Part shown: positions 42,009 through 49,064 of the stretch, one piece after another
Numbering within the stretch: position 1 is the stretch's first letter
Layout of the letters: each line of letters opens with the position of its first letter
DNA from: Streptomyces sp. NBC_01353
Lineage (GTDB): Bacteria; Actinomycetota; Actinomycetes; Streptomycetales; Streptomycetaceae
NCBI RefSeq assembly: GCF_036237275.1
Contig: NZ_CP108352.1
Coordinates: 7,465,501-7,529,500 of the forward strand
DNA length: 64,000 bases
Direction: 5' to 3'
Position numbers and translations under genes: made by a program
The notes under the pieces: generated by a model
The model's database searches: none
What the model saw: only the letters and a program-made list of their open reading frames with translations
What the model was told of the DNA's origin: nothing

Positions 42009-44825
42009 TCAGGAGAGCGCGCGGGCGGCATGGGCGCGGACGTCGGCGTCGGGGTCGGTGGTGACGGAGGCGAGCGCGGCACGGGCCTCGAGGTCCTCCC
42101 GGTGGGGATGGAGGGAGAGGACGGCGGCCTTGCGGACGTCCGCGTTCGGGTCGGCAAGTGCCTTGGCCAGCGCGGGGACGGCCTGAGCGGGCGGCGCCGC
42201 TCGGAGTGCCGTCGCGGCACCGGCCCGGACCTGCCAGGCGGGTTCGGCGAGCGCCGACGTGGCCGCCTCCGCGTACTCGGACGGGCAGCCGGTCGTCGCC
42301 AGCGAGGCGAGGGCGGCGCCCTTGACCAGGGGGTCGGGGTCGTCGAGCAGGGGCAGCAGCTGCGCGGGCGCCGGGGCGCGTACGGCCGCCAGACCGCGCG
42401 CCACGGCGACCCGGACCTCGCGGGCCGGATCGGCGGCGGCCACCGCCAGCTCGGGCACGGCGTCCACCGAGACCAGAGCCCGTACCGCGTGGATACGGAC
42501 GTCGATGTCGGTGTCGCCGAGCGCGTCGGCGTACACCGCGGCGTCGGCGAGGCGCAGGGCGCGCAGCACCTCCAGCGCGGCGGAGCGAACGGCCGGGTCG
42601 GTGCCGCGGAGCGCCGCGCGCAGCCCGGCCCCCAACTCGGTTTCGGCGGGCAGCACTTCGACCAGCTCGCGCAGGGCGGCCGCGGCGGCGTGCCGGACCT
42701 GGGGCGCGGTGTCCCGCAGCCGTTCGGCGAGCGCGGGGCCGGCCCCGACCGGAACGGTCTCCGCCAGCGCCGCGACGGCGGCCGAGCGGACGGCCGGATC
42801 GGCGTCGGTGAGGTAGGGGCGGAGCGCGCCCAGATCGGGCGACTCCTCGGCGAGGGTGAGCAGCCGGAGAAGGGCGGGGCTCGGCCCGGCGGCCGTGTCT
42901 GCGACGGGCGCCCGGTCGGCGGCGGCAGTCGGGCCCTCCGCCCGAGCCGGATGCACAGTCCCGACTCCGGTCGCGGTCCCGGCGACATCCCGCCGCGCCG
43001 CCGGAGCCGCGTCACGGCGGCCCGCCGTGGCCGTGGGCACCAGCCGCACCTCGCCCAGCCACCGCTCCGGCCCCTGCTCCGGCGTGAACTCCGGGACCGG
43101 GACGACATAGGGCTCGACCGGACGGGCCGTGAACTCCATCGCCCCGGACGCCGACTTGCGCAGGTCGAGGTGGTGCAGCCAGCCCGTGTCGTCCCGCTCC
43201 GGGTGGTCGAGGCGCTCGTGGTAGAGGCCCCAGCGTGACTCGGTGCGGGCCAGCGAGGCCCGTGCCGCCATCTCCGCGCAGTCACGGATGAACGACACCT
43301 CTGCGCACCGCATCAACTCGTGCGCGGTGCGCGCCCCCATGCCCGTGATCTCCGTCGACATCCGGTCGAACGCCTCCACCGCCAGGGACAGTTTCGCCCC
43401 GGTCTTCGGCGGCGCCACGTAGTCGTTCACGAACCGCCGGAGCTTGTACTCCACCTGCGGCTGCGGCGGCCCCTCGGGGTTGAGCAGCGGCCGGTAGGCG
43501 AGTTCGTGGGCGGCGGCCAGCTGCTCCTGCGGCAACTCACCCTCGTACGCCCGGTACTGGGCCGCGTCCTCACCCGCCAGGTCTCCGTAGACGAAGGCCC
43601 CGATCATGTAGTTGTGCGGTACGCAGGCCAGGTCTCCGGCCGCGTACAGCCGGGGCACCGTGGTGCGGGCGTGAGCGTCCACCCGTACCCCCGAGGCGGA
43701 GTGCCCGCCGCACAGACCGATCTCCGAGATGTGCATCTCGATGTCGTGGGTGCGGTAGTCGTGTCCCCGGCCCTCGTGGAAGGTGCCGCGGGTGGGGCGC
43801 TCCGTCGTGTGCAGGATCGACTCGACGGCGCCGATGGTCTCCTCGGGCAGATGGCTGAGCTTGAGGTACACCGGGCCCCGGTCCGAGGCGAGTTCGGCCG
43901 CGAACTCGGCCATCATCTGCCCCGACCAGTAGTCCGACTCCACGAACCGTTCGCCGTGCCGGTTCACCTGGTACCCCCCGAACGGGTTCGCCACGTACGC
44001 GCAGGCCGGTCCGTTGTAGTCCTTGATCAGCGGATTGACCTGGAAGCACTCGATCCCGGTCAGGGCCGCGCCCGCGTGGTACGCCATGGCGTAGCCGTCA
44101 CCGGCGTTGGTCGGGTTCTCGTACGTCCCGTACAGATAGCCGGATGCGGGCAGGCCGAGCCGGCCGCACGCGCCCGTGGCGAGGATCACCGCGCCGGCCC
44201 GGACGATGACGAACTCGCCGGTCCGGGTGTTGAATCCGGCCGCGCCGACGGCCCGCCCGTCGTCGGGGTGCGTGAGCACACGCACCGGCATGACCCGGTT
44301 CTCGATACGGATCCGCTCCCGCATCTCCCGGCGCCGCAACTGCCGGTAGAGGACCTTCTTGACGTCCTTGCCCTCCGGCATCGGCAGCACGTACGAGCCG
44401 GACCGGTGCACCTGGCGGACGGCGTACTCGCCGTGCTCGTCCTTCTCGAACTTCACCCCGTACGACTCCAGTCGCTGGACCATCGCGAAGCCGCGGGTCG
44501 CGGTCTGCCGGACGGTCGACTGGTCGACGATGCCGTCGTTGGCGCGGGTGATCTCGGCGACGTAGTCGTCCGGTTCGGCCCGGCCCGGTACGACGGCGTT
44601 GTTGACCCCGTCCATGCCCATGGCGAGAGCGCCGGAGTGGCGGACGTGTGCCTTCTCCAGGAGCAGCACGTTCGCGCCGCGACCGGCGGCCGTCAGCGCG
44701 GCCATGGTGCCGGCGGTGCCGCCGCCGATGACGAGGACGTCGCAGGACAGTTCGGTCGCGTCGGCGAGGGCGGGGATGGCCAAAGGGGCGGCCGAGGGGG
44801 CGGCCGGGGCCGGTGGGGTGTCCAC
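42009..44825 (-). CDS. AprA-like FAD oxidoreductase with C-terminal HEAT repeats
   Basis: The first 600 or so residues of this 938-residue protein are an FAD oxidoreductase of the fumarate reductase/adenylylsulfate reductase superfamily: VLVIGGGTAGTMAALTAA at the FAD site, HSGALAMGMDGVNN (AprA-like rather than SdhA-like), DGIVDQSTVRQTATRG, NPTNAGDGYAMAYHAGA and RLYAAGDLACV. After a linker, about residues 660-938 form some eight HEAT-like repeats (for example DADPAVRSAAVAALAE). The small ferredoxin of the operon would be its electron partner. GTG 44825 begins 10 bp after the ATPase gene. The substrate is unknown; sulfur chemistry is inferred from the AprA resemblance and the transporter type. 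Confidence 0.88.
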   Translation of the reverse strand: MDTPPAPAAPSAAPLAIPALADATELSCDVLVIGGGTAGTMAALTAAGRGANVLLLEKAHVRHSGALAMGMDGVNNAVVPGRAEPDDYVAEITRANDGIVDQSTVRQTATRGFAMVQRLESYGVKFEKDEHGEYAVRQVHRSGSYVLPMPEGKDVKKVLYRQLRRREMRERIRIENRVMPVRVLTHPDDGRAVGAAGFNTRTGEFVIVRAGAVILATGACGRLGLPASGYLYGTYENPTNAGDGYAMAYHAGAALTGIECFQVNPLIKDYNGPACAYVANPFGGYQVNRHGERFVESDYWSGQMMAEFAAELASDRGPVYLKLSHLPEETIGAVESILHTTERPTRGTFHEGRGHDYRTHDIEMHISEIGLCGGHSASGVRVDAHARTTVPRLYAAGDLACVPHNYMIGAFVYGDLAGEDAAQYRAYEGELPQEQLAAAHELAYRPLLNPEGPPQPQVEYKLRRFVNDYVAPPKTGAKLSLAVEAFDRMSTEITGMGARTAHELMRCAEVSFIRDCAEMAARASLARTESRWGLYHERLDHPERDDTGWLHHLDLRKSASGAMEFTARPVEPYVVPVPEFTPEQGPERWLGEVRLVPTATAGRRDAAPAARRDVAGTATGVGTVHPARAEGPTAAADRAPVADTAAGPSPALLRLLTLAEESPDLGALRPYLTDADPAVRSAAVAALAETVPVGAGPALAERLRDTAPQVRHAAAAALRELVEVLPAETELGAGLRAALRGTDPAVRSAALEVLRALRLADAAVYADALGDTDIDVRIHAVRALVSVDAVPELAVAAADPAREVRVAVARGLAAVRAPAPAQLLPLLDDPDPLVKGAALASLATTGCPSEYAEAATSALAEPAWQVRAGAATALRAAPPAQAVPALAKALADPNADVRKAAVLSLHPHREDLEARAALASVTTDPDADVRAHAARALS

Positions 44826-44835
44826 GGGATGCCTT

Positions 44836-45591
44836 TCAGAGGGATGCGAGGATGCGCCGGCGCAGTTCGGCGGTGGCGGGCTCCCGGCGCGCGTCCCGCT
44901 GCCGCGGGTGCGGGACGTCGAGCACCCGGCCGGAGGGAAGGAGCGCGACGCGGTCCCCGAGATGGAGGGCCTCGTCCACGTCGTGGGTGACGAAGACGAC
45001 GGTCGCGCCGGTGCCGCGCAGGATGTCCACGAGGAGGTCCTGCATCTCGGCGCGGGTGTGTGCGTCGAGCGCGCCGAAGGGTTCGTCCATCAGCACCGCG
45101 CGGGGCCGGCCGGCCAGGGCGCGGGCCAGCTGGACGCGCTGACGCTGGCCGCCGGACAACTGGTGCGGCAGCTTGCGGGCGTGCTCGGCGAGGCCGACCC
45201 GGTCCAGCCACTCGGCGGCGGACCGCCGCCGTTCGGCGCGAGGGACCCGGCGGATCGCCAACGGCAGTTCCACATTGGCGCGGACGGTCCGCCAGGGCAG
45301 CAGGGCGTCGTGCTGGAAGACCAGCGCCCGGTCGGCGGCGGGCCCGCCGATCGGCTCCCCGTCCTGGGTCACCCGTCCGCCGAGCGCGGGAAGCAGTCCG
45401 GCGAGGGTGCGCAGCAGCGTGGACTTCCCGCAGCCGGACGGGCCGACCACGGCCAGCAGTTCTCCCGGCGCGATGCGCAGCTCGGCGGCGGTGAGCACCG
45501 TCGTACCGTCCGCGTGACCGAGCCGTACGTCCTCCAGGGCCAGCTCCGCGCCGGTCGGCGCGGGTGCGAGGCGCGTGAGCGCGCTGCTCAT
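44836..45591 (-). CDS. ABC transporter ATPase (sulfonate/nitrate type)
   Basis: The 251-residue SsuB/TauB-type ATPase has GPSGCGKST (Walker A), LVFQHDALLPWRTV (Q loop), LSGGQRQRVQLARAL, VLMDEPFGALD (Walker B) and the switch His in FVTHDVDEAL. It energises the permease encoded by the preceding gene, whose stop overlaps its ATG by ATGA. The alternative longer start inside the permease gene is not used. Confidence 0.92.
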   Translation of the reverse strand: MSSALTRLAPAPTGAELALEDVRLGHADGTTVLTAAELRIAPGELLAVVGPSGCGKSTLLRTLAGLLPALGGRVTQDGEPIGGPAADRALVFQHDALLPWRTVRANVELPLAIRRVPRAERRRSAAEWLDRVGLAEHARKLPHQLSGGQRQRVQLARALAGRPRAVLMDEPFGALDAHTRAEMQDLLVDILRGTGATVVFVTHDVDEALHLGDRVALLPSGRVLDVPHPRQRDARREPATAELRRRILASL

Positions 45592-46475
45592 GAGACCGAC
45601 TCCTTCTCCAGGGCGGAGGCAGGGGCAGAGGCGGGGGCGGGTACGAGGGGGGTACGGGGCGCTGTCCGGCGGCGGAGCACCGTAAGGGGGACGCGGACAG
45701 CCGGTCGCGCGGCGGGCCTGGGCAGCCACGAGGTGACGCGGCGGCCCAGGAGCTCCACCGCGGTGGAGGTGAGCCAGCCCAGGGCGCCGATGGTGGCCAT
45801 GCCGACGAAGACGCCCGGGTAGTCGACGACCGTGTACTCCTGCCAGGTGCGGTAACCCACCCCGTACTCACCCGAGATCATCTCCGCGGAGATCACACAG
45901 ATCCACGAGACGCCGATGCCCACGGACAGGCCGCCGAAGATGCCCGGCAGGGCCCCTGGCAGCACCACCGAGAACAGCACGCGCAGCCGGCCGCCGCCCA
46001 TGGTGAGCACGGCCTCCTCCCACACCGGGGCGAGGGCGCGCACCGCGTGCCGGGTCGACACGAGGACGGGGAAGAAGGCGGCGGTGAAGGTGATGAAGAC
46101 GATGCCCTGCTCGTTGGTGGGGAGCAGCAGGATCGCGACCGGGACGAGGGCGATGGCCGGCACCGGCCGTACGACCTCGAGGAGCGGGCCCAGCAGGTCG
46201 GCTGCCCACCGGGAGCGGGCGACGGCGGTGCCGACCGCCACCCCGAGCATCGCGGCCAGCAGGAAGCCGACCACGATCCGGCGCACGCTGTGCCCCAGGT
46301 CCTGCCAGTACGGGCCGGTGCCGACCCGGTCGGCGAAGGCGGAGGCCACCTCGCCGACCGTGGGGAACTGCTCGAACCGTAGCCACAGGTTGACGTCCAG
46401 GGAGGTCAGCAGCTGCCACAGCCCGAGGGCCGCTCCGAGCGAGACCACTCGGAGCACCCAGCGGCCCGCGCTCAT
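45588..46475 (-). CDS. ABC transporter permease (sulfonate/nitrate type)
   Basis: The 295-residue permease of the SsuC/TauC type has six membrane segments and the EAA loop AVRALAPVWEEAVLTMGGGRLRVLFSVVLPGALPGIFGGLSVGIG. It pairs with the ATPase and the binding lipoprotein. ATG 46475 overlaps the binding-protein stop by four bases. The C-terminal 35 residues are Arg/Pro-rich, probably cytoplasmic. Confidence 0.92.
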   Translation of the reverse strand: MSAGRWVLRVVSLGAALGLWQLLTSLDVNLWLRFEQFPTVGEVASAFADRVGTGPYWQDLGHSVRRIVVGFLLAAMLGVAVGTAVARSRWAADLLGPLLEVVRPVPAIALVPVAILLLPTNEQGIVFITFTAAFFPVLVSTRHAVRALAPVWEEAVLTMGGGRLRVLFSVVLPGALPGIFGGLSVGIGVSWICVISAEMISGEYGVGYRTWQEYTVVDYPGVFVGMATIGALGWLTSTAVELLGRRVTSWLPRPAARPAVRVPLTVLRRRTAPRTPLVPAPASAPASALEKESVS

Positions 46476-47836
46476 GACGCCAGGCCGACGGCGGCCGCGT
46501 GGTCGACGATCCGGGATCCGGCGTGCGCGGCGACGTACGCCTTCGCGCCGGACGGGGTGACGAAGGCACGCAGCTCGGCGCCGTCGACGACCCACACCGC
46601 CTTGTCGGCGAACCACAGCGTGCCCGTCACCGCGTCCGGGACGTACGCGGCGCGCACATCGGCGCCCTTGGCGGCCTTCAACAGCTCCTTCGGGCTGGTG
46701 AACGTGCGGGTGGTGCTCTGGCCCTTCAGCCACAGCTCGGGCTTCGCGGCGGTCGCCTTCGGGTACTCAGGGGCCTGCGCGGCCCGCTTGAGCGGCGCCG
46801 GGTCGACGAAGGCGTCCACATCGACGTCGCCCACCAGCTTGGCCGCCTTCAGCAGCGGTACGTCCTCCTTCAGGGCGGCGATCAGCTCCGGGCGGAGCTC
46901 CGGGTCGAAGGTGGCGATGCCGTTGGCGCCGTTGTAGAGGTAGACCACCTCGGCCGGCAGGCCGGTCTCCTTGGCGACCGACTCGGCGGCGGCGACCGGC
47001 TGGGAGCGGAGGTGATCGGTGGCCCGCCGCTGCGCGGTGAGGAAGTCGTCGAGGATCCCGGCCCGTTCCTTGGCGAACTTCTCCCGGACGGTGACCCCGT
47101 GGAAGGTCGGCAGGTTCAGCTCGGCACCGTCGTACAGCGCCGTGGCACGGCCGTCGAAGGCCAGCAGCCCGGGCCAGGCGACGAACTGGGACAGTGCGTC
47201 GGCGCTGCCGGCGGACAGCGCGGACGCGCCGACGCTGGGCTGCTGGTTGAGCTTCCGGATGTCCTTGTCCGGGTCGAGGCCGGCGCGCTGGAGCGCCCGG
47301 ACGAGGGTGCCGTCGGCGGCCGAGCCGACGCTGGTGGAGACCTTCTTGCCGCGCAGGTCGGCCAGCGACCGCACACTCGAACCAGGGGCGGTGACCACGG
47401 TGTTGAGGCCGCCGCGCAGGTTGTAGCCGGTGACCGCGACCAGCCGGGTGGGCTGCTTGAGCTGCTTGCCGCGCGCCGCGTTGATGAGCAGGGGGAAGTC
47501 GCCCATGGAGCCGATGTCGATCTTCCCTGCGGTCATCTGGGCGGTGATCGGTGCACCGGTCGCGTAGTCCTGCCACGCGACCTTGTACGTGATGCCGTCC
47601 TTCTTCCCGCGGGCGGCGAGCTCCTCCTCGAAGTAGCCGAGGGAGCGCAGCAGGGTGCCGGCCGTGACGGTGTTGATGGTCTTCGACTGGTAGCCGACGG
47701 TCACCGTGACCGTCCGTGCGTCGGCCGCGTCGTCGGTGCCCGCGGCACCGCCACACGCGGTGGCCAGCGGCAGCAGCAGGGCGAGGGAGAGGAGTGGGGC
47801 GAGGGGGCGACGCGGGGGGATCTTCTTGCCGGGCAT
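46472..47836 (-). CDS. ABC binding lipoprotein with extra C-terminal NosL-like domain
   Basis: The 454-residue binding lipoprotein (lipobox LATAC after MPGKKIPPRRPLAPLL) has an SsuA/TauA/NMT1-type core: VGYQSKTINTVTAGTLLRSLGYFEEEL, QMTAGKIDIGSMGDFPLL, AALSAGSADALSQF. After the usual end near residue 370 it continues for about 80 residues: AYVPDAVTGTLWFADKAVWVVDGAELRAFVTPSGAKAYVAAHAG. This extension resembles NosL-type domains. It precedes the permease with ATGA overlap. Confidence 0.88.
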   Translation of the reverse strand: MPGKKIPPRRPLAPLLSLALLLPLATACGGAAGTDDAADARTVTVTVGYQSKTINTVTAGTLLRSLGYFEEELAARGKKDGITYKVAWQDYATGAPITAQMTAGKIDIGSMGDFPLLINAARGKQLKQPTRLVAVTGYNLRGGLNTVVTAPGSSVRSLADLRGKKVSTSVGSAADGTLVRALQRAGLDPDKDIRKLNQQPSVGASALSAGSADALSQFVAWPGLLAFDGRATALYDGAELNLPTFHGVTVREKFAKERAGILDDFLTAQRRATDHLRSQPVAAAESVAKETGLPAEVVYLYNGANGIATFDPELRPELIAALKEDVPLLKAAKLVGDVDVDAFVDPAPLKRAAQAPEYPKATAAKPELWLKGQSTTRTFTSPKELLKAAKGADVRAAYVPDAVTGTLWFADKAVWVVDGAELRAFVTPSGAKAYVAAHAGSRIVDHAAAVGLAS

Positions 47837-47850
47837 GGGAGTCGGGCCTT

Positions 47851-48078
47851 TCACCGGAGCAGATAGGGCATGTTGACGGTGACCGCGTCGGTGGGGCAGC
47901 GGGCCGCGCACGGGCCGCAGTACCAGCACTCGTCCACGTGCATGTACGCCTTGCCGTTGTCCTCGCGGATCGCGAGCGAGTCGAGCGGACACATGTCGAC
48001 GCAGAGGGTGCAGCCGTCGATGCACTTGGACTCGTCGATGGTCACGGGCACGTCGGCGCGCTGCGGCACAAGAGGCAT
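47851..48078 (-). CDS. 2[4Fe-4S] ferredoxin, AprB-like
   Basis: The 75-residue ferredoxin has two cluster motifs: CIDGCTLCVDMCP, with three residues between the first two cysteines as in AprB-type iron-sulfur subunits, and CWYCGPCAARCP with normal CxxCxxCxxxCP spacing. A Tyr/Trp-rich linker separates them. It most likely shuttles electrons to or from the AprA-like flavoprotein. It begins 49 bp after the regulator gene and ends 14 bp before the binding protein. Confidence 0.92.
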   Translation of the reverse strand: MPLVPQRADVPVTIDESKCIDGCTLCVDMCPLDSLAIREDNGKAYMHVDECWYCGPCAARCPTDAVTVNMPYLLR

Positions 48079-48127
48079 GGCTGTCTCCGGGAAGGGGCGG
48101 AAAGGGGAGGAGGAGGTGGGGCGGGAC

Positions 48128-48895
48128 TCAGAGGGAGCGGCGCAGTACGCCGCTCATGGTGATGCGGTCGCCGCGGAACCGGATGAACTCCAGGTCCACC
48201 GGTCGTCCGTCGGGTAGACAGGTCAGCCGTTCCAGCATCAGTACGGCGGTCCCGCGCGGGGCCTGGAGGACGGCGGCGGAGTGCGCGTCCGCGTTGACCG
48301 CTTCGAGGGTGATCTCGGCGTGCCCCAGCGGGCCGCCGGTCAGCGTTTCGAGGAGCCGGAACACGTCCGTGTTCTCCAGGTCGCAGCCGAGGAGTTCACC
48401 GCCGATGTCCATGGGCAGATAGGACAGGTCGAGGGAGAGCGGCAGCCCGTTCAGGCGGCGCAGCCGCTCGATGCAGAGCACGTCGGTGTGCTCGGGCAGG
48501 CCCAGTCGATGGGCCACGGGTCCGGAGGCGGCGACCGGCCCGACCGTACGTACCTCGTTGGTGACCCGGCCGTGCTCGTGCAGGGTCTCCGCCAGGCCCT
48601 GGAGCCGGTCCAGTCCGTGGGGGTACTTCTCGCACACCACGACGGTGCCGACCCCCGGCTGCCGGTCGACGAGCTGCTCGCCGCGCAGCAGGTCCAGGGC
48701 CTGCCGGACGGTGTTGCGACTCGCCCGGTAGTCGGCGGCGATGGCGTCCTCCAGGGGGAGGACGCCGCCGGGGAAGCCGCCCGTCAGGATCTGGTGCCGC
48801 AGCAGGTCGGCGAGCTGCCGGGCCCGGTCCGCGCGCAGCCGCCGACGACGCGCGGCGGCGACCGGGAGGGAGGCGGGGGTGGGTTCGGCTGACAT
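48128..48895 (-). CDS. GntR-family regulator (HutC/UTRA type)
   Basis: The 255-residue regulator has an N-terminal GntR winged helix (RARQLADLLRHQILTGGFPG, LPLEDAIAADYRASRNTVRQALDLLRGEQLV). A C-terminal UTRA ligand domain follows (TDVLCIERLRRLNGLPLSLDLSYLP, VLMLERLTCLPDGRPVDLEFIRFRGDRI). It is the first gene of the transporter/redox operon and probably its ligand-responsive switch. ATG 48895 is chosen; the longer frame upstream is not protein-like. Confidence 0.9.
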   Translation of the reverse strand: MSAEPTPASLPVAAARRRRLRADRARQLADLLRHQILTGGFPGGVLPLEDAIAADYRASRNTVRQALDLLRGEQLVDRQPGVGTVVVCEKYPHGLDRLQGLAETLHEHGRVTNEVRTVGPVAASGPVAHRLGLPEHTDVLCIERLRRLNGLPLSLDLSYLPMDIGGELLGCDLENTDVFRLLETLTGGPLGHAEITLEAVNADAHSAAVLQAPRGTAVLMLERLTCLPDGRPVDLEFIRFRGDRITMSGVLRRSL

Positions 48896-49064
48896 GTCTG
48901 GGAACGTACCGGCGCGGTGGCCCGGATGGTGTTGCCGCAGTATTGCGCCACCTGACGCTCCGAAGGCACCGCTGTGACCTGCGGTTTTCTGGATGGAGCG
49001 ACAAGATCCGCCACCCACCTGTTCACCAGGTGGACACGACCGGTGGACCGCCCCGCCCCGCCGC

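Follow-up and report, generated by a model that had tools for sequence, protein, structure and literature searches.

A conserved operon of Streptomyces sp. NBC_01353 pairs a sulfonate-type importer with an APS-reductase-like flavoprotein and may serve in sulfur scavenging

The 64,000-nucleotide stretch of Streptomyces sp. NBC_01353 analysed here (the window; contig NZ_CP108352.1, positions 7,465,501 to 7,529,500) contains a six-gene minus-strand operon that combines an ATP-binding cassette (ABC) importer of the sulfonate type with a flavoprotein and a ferredoxin resembling AprA and AprB of adenylylsulfate (APS) reductase. With somewhat better than even confidence, we propose that the operon imports an organosulfonate, from which an AprAB-like complex carrying FAD and [4Fe-4S] clusters would release sulfite for sulfur scavenging. 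We observed a characteristic gene content, its conservation, a phylogenetic position beside APS reductase, conserved residues and, in a minority of loci, sulfur-linked neighbours; from these we infer a substrate, a direction of electron flow, chemistry at flavin N5, a role for the HEAT-repeat part of the flavoprotein and a mode of regulation, each of which is worded below as a proposal. The operon typifies a widespread, already catalogued family.

The first-pass annotation of this DNA had described six compact genes, and open reading frame coordinates confirm the place and spacing of all of them. The first gene (48128..48895, on the minus strand like every feature below) encodes a GntR/UTRA regulator of the HutC type (PF00392 6e-14, PF07702 1.1e-32), followed after a 49-bp gap by a 75-residue 2x[4Fe-4S] ferredoxin with an AprB-like core but no tail (47851..48078; Pfam 4Fe-4S dicluster) and, after another 14 bp, by a substrate-binding lipoprotein of the NMT1/SsuA family with a long C-terminal extension (46472..47836; TIGR01728 2.6e-36). 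The lipoprotein gene shares a 4-bp ATGA overlap with that of the ABC permease (45588..46475; PF00528, BPD_transp_1, 4.6e-18), which overlaps the ABC ATPase gene (44836..45591; PF00005, ABC_tran, 4.4e-30) by 4 bp as well, and a gap of 10 bp leads to the last gene, that of a 938-residue flavoprotein fused to HEAT repeats (42009..44825; NF010374, FAD_binding_2 and Succ_DH_flav_C). Trees and a residue map delimit its FAD and catalytic part as residues 1-590 (43056..44825); its HEAT-repeat tail is set at residues 641-938 (42009..42905).

This arrangement is conserved far beyond the window. A scan of named genomes gave at least 589 confirmed matches, and among the best 80 loci, which were kept and are all actinobacterial by title, 76 carry the six genes and the HEAT tail collinearly, on one strand and within 9 kb, so the arrangement exceeds chance. 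Two of the four exceptions are short contigs (L055, L096), one lacks the regulator (L073) and one has its regulator and ferredoxin genes further off (L117); the GntR/UTRA gene is present at 78 of the 80. Streptomyces supplies the nearest named relatives found in the scan, and an identical order of the six genes occurs on a Tsukamurella plasmid. Among 12 aligned loci from actinobacteria, cyanobacteria and proteobacteria, the flavoproteins are 57-78% identical to that of the window, and ferredoxin identities are 53-71%. In a set of 150 related genomes that includes the window's own, 37 have matches above the family cut-off; the 8.57-Mb genome itself holds a single copy, its remaining matches scoring at most 80.1 bits. 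Carriers of the operon include S. violaceoruber NRRL S-981 (L052) and Streptomyces sulfonofaciens (L085), the latter with a species name that points to sulfonic acid products. In a search for viral relatives, 24 stretches fitted a pattern and none was confirmed.

The flavoprotein scores 1571.9 bits against NF010374 (PRK13800; cut-off 1196) over residues 16-937 and also exceeds the cut-off of NF006131 (PRK08275; 865.9 vs 587). The first-pass annotation had overlooked both this existing family model and the HEAT tail. NCBIfam names both families 'fumarate reductase/succinate dehydrogenase flavoprotein subunit', a label that looks wrong, being unsupported by residues or tree. No functional study of either family was found in the literature searched, which excluded most subscription journals, so this is weak evidence of absence; the one paper retrieved for PRK13800, PRK08275 or NF010374 was PMC8401276, on mycorrhizal fungi, and the parts of PMC8557817 and PMC13352529 that were accessible contain nothing on the PRK13800 family. 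The closest solved homologue is 8a8o, the alpha subunit of the 3'-phosphoadenylylsulfate (PAPS) reductase of M. thermolithotrophicus (MtPAPSR; 2.8e-53 with the window protein, 1.1e-82 with the family profile), and the solved matches of the family profile list MtPAPSR first, AprA next and then SdhA.

In two trees the family, represented by 21 rows, is the sister group of AprA together with PAPS-reductase-like proteins, with support of 96/95 and 95/95 and with SdhA outside; the first tree included a bogus row, L007, and several long branches, and the second left out rows L007, L005, L137, L122 and L003 and added L139. The AprA row is partial in both trees and, by the program's own warning, its long branch could be misplaced, so the branching order inside the AprA/PAPS-reductase sister group is unsure. 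These trees bear out the AprA/AprB-like pair recognised by the first-pass annotation, and a flavoprotein inside the succinate dehydrogenase or fumarate reductase clade with the active-site residues, which it had named as the finding that would speak against it, did not appear. In the profile comparison it had suggested, the AprA and AprB models stay below their cut-offs (aprA 124.7 vs 641.75 bits for the flavoprotein; aprB TIGR02060 31.4 vs 135.65 for the ferredoxin), as do PRK06854, the model of MtPAPSR-type PAPS reductases (256.6 vs 557), and TIGR01812 for succinate dehydrogenase/fumarate reductase (144.1 vs 567.3).

Residue numbers were counted on two alignments, conservation was read across 21 flavoproteins and 12 ferredoxins, and AprA residue roles follow the available text of PMC2211403, in which Asn-A74 and His-A398 contact the sulfonyl group and Arg-A265 is catalytic. 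Both sulfonyl-contacting residues are retained in all 21 flavoproteins as N75 and H375, and so is His-A446, as H404; at the position of Trp-A234, all 21 have Tyr235. The nucleotide side is altered, with Gly274 changed to Cys275, Tyr95 to Glu91 and, in the adenine clamp, Leu-A278 to A279 and Arg-A317 to E307, the last being a less sure match. All 12 ferredoxins share eight Cys and Trp52, which stands at the place of AprB Trp-B48 and is also matched by a Trp in two PAPS-reductase-like beta subunits; the ferredoxin of the Asf candidate discussed below has no such Trp. This pattern suggests a likeness to APS reductase in the electron path and on the sulfonyl side, but not on the nucleotide side. 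For succinate dehydrogenase, we take His45 to hold the covalent FAD, His242 to belong to the active site and Arg286 to be catalytic. The first two places are occupied by Gly65, as in AprA, and Asn264 in all 21 proteins, and the third by Gly302 in one alignment, the second alignment setting this stretch in another register.

The importer may be one for sulfonates. Although below the TIGR01728 cut-off (125.3 vs 163.5 bits), the binding lipoprotein has E. coli SsuA (2x26, 7.4e-18) as its nearest solved structure, and the four solved matches with E ≤ 0.01 comprise this protein, another SsuA, a taurine-binding protein and a nitrate-titled protein, so that the first-pass annotation has support for an SsuA-like importer, the nearest solved binders being mostly titled for sulfonate or taurine. 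At 454 residues the lipoprotein exceeds the E. coli-type SsuA model (319) by 135 and has an unassigned C-terminal extension. The permease is NtrB/TauC/SsuC-like, below every cut-off, and the ATPase is TauB-like (2.4e-66), also below its cut-off. Binding protein, permease and ATPase genes lie beside the flavoprotein at 79 of the 80 actinobacterial loci, the remaining one being a 4.3-kb contig, and the full set is found in 9 of 12 stretches from other phyla (eight annotated, plus Variovorax by blastp); it is incomplete in Acidithiobacillus caldus (L032, with an ATPase gene cut at the edge), in Nostoc (L037, with binding proteins) and in Mesorhizobium (L038, with one edge-cut binding-protein gene unmatched by that of the window). 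The AprAB-like pair, the importer type and a neighbourhood conserved across actinobacteria are supported from the earlier reading, whose other adverse outcome, a neighbourhood missing from other genomes, did not arise either. Its assertion that AprAB-type subunits have no link with Ssu/Tau-type importers is not supported, and the published Asf cluster of a reductase/ferredoxin pair with an importer also runs counter to it, as described in the accessible part of PMC4267179.

Sulfur-linked genes accompany the module in a minority of loci. Genes for organosulfur oxygenases, FMN reductase, TauD or SsuA-like proteins lie within about 9 kb at 15 of the 80 loci, compared with none in 20 controls, windows of 19.7 kb from nine genomes (tblastn E<1e-20; one-sided p=0.026). 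In G091, a genome of the same order, two luciferase-type monooxygenases (SsuD-like and SfnG-like), an FMN reductase and two genes of the acyl-CoA-dehydrogenase fold lie no more than about 10 kb from the operon, and on the opposite side is an NMT1-type binding protein; the names SsuD-like, SfnG-like and SfnC-like used for this locus are partly our assumption. In the annotated loci outside actinobacteria, a TauE/SafE sulfite exporter occurs in 3 of 11, Mrp/NBP35 or DUF971 proteins in 7 of 11 (by annotation, four of the seven checked with Pfam) and FdxA in 2 of 11. On plasmid pTcM1 of A. caldus (L032 10574-14035), a gene for a 1153-residue GltD-like FAD oxidoreductase adjoins the flavoprotein, ferredoxin, HEAT and FdxA genes; the oxidoreductase is a possible electron donor.

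On the proposed reading, the lipoprotein, permease and ATPase would take up an organic sulfonate or a sulfonyl compound like it, and inside the cell the flavoprotein and ferredoxin would assemble into an AprAB-like complex. A non-covalent FAD would receive electrons by way of two [4Fe-4S] clusters and the bridging Trp; its N5 would act on the sulfonyl sulfur, and the sulfite released would enter assimilation; the HEAT part may act as a scaffold or docking domain, and the GntR protein may control its own operon. A more specific version would make the complex a third branch of APS reductases, in which reduced FAD, fed by the ferredoxin, cleaves the organic sulfonate directly and gives sulfite independently of oxygen, the HEAT part serving as scaffold; this we offer tentatively and regard on balance as doubtful.

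Several observations weigh against release of sulfite from an imported sulfonate. The catalytic Arg-A265 of AprA, which PAPS reductase keeps, is Leu266 in 21 of 21 flavoproteins, and some of the chemistry must therefore differ from that of AprA. The S-O-P bond of APS leaves much more readily than a C-S bond would. One of the solved binding-protein matches is titled as a nitrate transport protein, and the NMT1/SsuA-type family also imports compounds free of sulfur. At 65 of the 80 loci no match to the organosulfur queries was found, and the enrichment at the others must be read with the facts that most queries were picked from two islands (plus one plasmid) already seen beside such flavoproteins, that the control windows came from none of the case genomes and that several matches are distant members of broad families. 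Finally, an AlphaFold model built with 30 actinobacterial sequences has a mean predicted local distance difference test (pLDDT) score of 68.3 and low confidence in the FAD part; residues 218-379 fall below 50, and the model was for this reason left out of the active-site analysis.

The best-surviving alternative is an Asf-like helper function, in which flavoprotein and ferredoxin merely feed electrons to an oxygenase such as SsuD that performs the desulfonation. AsfA and AsfB are described, in the available parts of PMC4267179 and PMC2864759, as a reductase/ferredoxin pair complementing ssu; SsuD-like genes are close to the operon at some loci, and one lies 88 kb from it in the window's genome, outside the window. 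Among same-genus genomes, an SsuD-like gene (E<1e-90) occurs in 26 of the 31 that carry the family and in 32 of the 60 that do not (p=0.005, uncorrected for genome size). Yet 5 of these 31 genomes, and 7 of 37 overall, have the family but lack an SsuD-like gene (G102, one of the seven, is 77% complete), and at the curated cut-off SsuD has no match in the 150 genomes. The many invariant pocket residues are expected of an enzyme with its own substrate, and the Asf-candidate flavoprotein stands on a separate branch; we judge a helper role unlikely.

That the operon serves as a dehydrogenase or reductase of an imported anion without sulfur (a carboxylate, a phosphonate or another) is distinctly improbable in our view. 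The wider flavoprotein superfamily does use carboxylates, binding proteins of the NMT1/SsuA type accept varied ligands, and Pfam also scores Phosphonate-bd at 5e-07; against this stand the AprA/PAPS-reductase sister group, the missing succinate dehydrogenase residues and the sulfur-linked neighbours at a minority of loci. A PAPS or APS reductase of sulfate assimilation would agree with the best solved homologue and with its two-subunit make-up, but the catalytic Arg and most nucleotide-site residues are replaced, both specific models stay below their cut-offs, and the six genes include no ATP sulfurylase or APS kinase, unlike the Ilyobacter operon described below, which makes that function very unlikely. 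A true succinate dehydrogenase or fumarate reductase, the database name notwithstanding, can be set aside with near certainty given the TIGR01812 score, the replaced His45 and His242, the position of SdhA outside the family and a six-gene operon with no membrane-anchor gene.

The HEAT tail distinguishes the actinobacterial flavoproteins by its fusion. The protein reaches 938 residues because about 290 at its C terminus (from about 650 to 938) are HEAT repeats (PF13646, 5.5e-27), and AlphaFold block means of pLDDT are 83-97 from residue 651 onward. All 11 annotated loci from cyanobacteria and proteobacteria carry a stand-alone HEAT-repeat gene close to those of the flavoprotein and the ferredoxin, and at the twelfth, unannotated locus, from Variovorax, a profile search found HEAT repeats, with a 336-codon open stretch between the ferredoxin and binding-protein genes. 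A profile of the 11 stand-alone proteins ranks the window's HEAT tail first in the genome at 128.5 bits, the next match having 43.4. Together, the 12 of 12 separate genes and this ranking support the view that actinobacteria fused to the flavoprotein a partner which other phyla encode nearby. HEAT repeats are mutually alike, as illustrated by the Leptolyngbya HEAT protein, which gives 99.5 bits to PRK13800 yet 98.6 to the HEAT protein NblB, and the evidence therefore lies in the score margin and gene position and not in the match alone. At one locus of G091 (L140 10878-13519), the flavoprotein and HEAT part overlap in different frames, which could be a natural split, a frameshift or a sequencing error.

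Upstream of gntR, two boxes are conserved in the window and 13 other loci, of 14 that were aligned (L049 dropped out). The first is a 22-bp element (48930..48951), likely an operator or part of a promoter, and the second is GTGGCGGATCTT (49003..49014). The 22-bp element has one match without mismatch in the genome, the operon's own; a genome-wide search allowing up to three mismatches returned 35 matches compared with 20 for the reversed pattern, and on these numbers we claim no regulon. The GntR protein may autoregulate the operon.

SsuD and TauD, two enzymes of assimilatory desulfonation, require oxygen. If the direct-cleavage version of the proposal is correct, a flavin-based, oxygen-independent desulfonase would be present across actinobacteria, rhizobia and other proteobacteria, and cyanobacteria. 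The conserved module in these three phyla would couple sulfonate-type uptake to APS-reductase-like chemistry and could represent another route of desulfonation; its succinate dehydrogenase/fumarate reductase label hides the module in annotated genomes. More than 95% of soil sulfur is organic, as stated in the available text of PMC4267179, and once its substrate is found the gene could be used as a marker of sulfur mobilisation in soil and rhizosphere.

Among known systems, AsfRABC is alike in clustering a reductase, ferredoxin, binding protein, ABC importer and regulator. According to the accessible part of PMC4267179, asfRABC of P. putida S-313 comprises a reductase/ferredoxin pair, a binding protein, an ABC transporter and a LysR regulator and is required for aromatic sulfonates; asfA is listed in several proteobacteria, Rhodococcus and Williamsia in that of PMC9694294, and a Cupriavidus CH34 replicon is reported as an asfAB carrier in that of PMC2864759. 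A search of the whole CH34 replicon NC_007974 found no member of the window family (best 84.4 bits). The sole CH34 site with flavoprotein and ferredoxin matches together, L134, is presumably Rmet_4334/4335; its flavoprotein, the AsfA candidate, lacks N75 and H375 and groups in both trees, at 100/100, with another flavoprotein of the window genome (L004, 8.426 Mb). The identity of the window operon with AsfAB was accordingly rejected. In a pattern search of CH34 801-851 kb the only ORF whose motif was ferredoxin-like was a spurious one of 63 residues, and inspection by eye recognised no LysR gene next to L134, although asfR is reported. The second pair of the window genome (L138, G000:C1:8418000-8436000) is of this Asf-candidate type and lies beside an NMT1-type binding protein, a luciferase-type monooxygenase, TauD and another SsuA-like protein (Pfam), with an ATPase, a permease and a ferredoxin recognised by eye. 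From this grouping and these neighbours, the genome probably holds an Asf-type cluster too, from which the window operon is distinct.

SsuABC and TauABC share the families of binding protein, permease and ATPase with the window importer, which differs in reaching no curated SsuA/TauA-type cut-off and in its longer binding protein. MtPAPSR resembles the window pair as best solved homologue and in its small ferredoxin-like beta subunit, but groups with AprA and retains the catalytic Arg; a Trp is proposed for its electron transfer and its pathway includes ATP sulfurylase and APS kinase, according to the available text of PMC10322725. The relative on Ilyobacter polytropus pILYOP02 has a Trp aligned with W52 and an operon that also has ATP sulfurylase and APS kinase genes. 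On this plasmid, typed as conjugative, cysC, a PAPS-reductase-like alpha subunit, a ferredoxin, cysD and a GTP-binding protein are adjacent (L133 5378-10709), a gene set that makes up a bacterial relative of the PAPS reductase pathway known from the methanogen. In G152, a genome of the same phylum as the window's, PAPS/APS-reductase-like alpha and beta genes lie beside genes that by eye resemble those of TusA and siroheme sulfite reductase (L139 7432-10602). AprAB forms the sister clade, and the window pair retains its non-covalent-FAD motif, Asn74, His398, His446 and Trp-B48, but replaces Arg265, Arg317, Leu278 and Tyr95, has a tail-less ferredoxin and adds the HEAT part and importer genes. 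Within PRK13800, the window protein is a full-length member that includes the HEAT tail.

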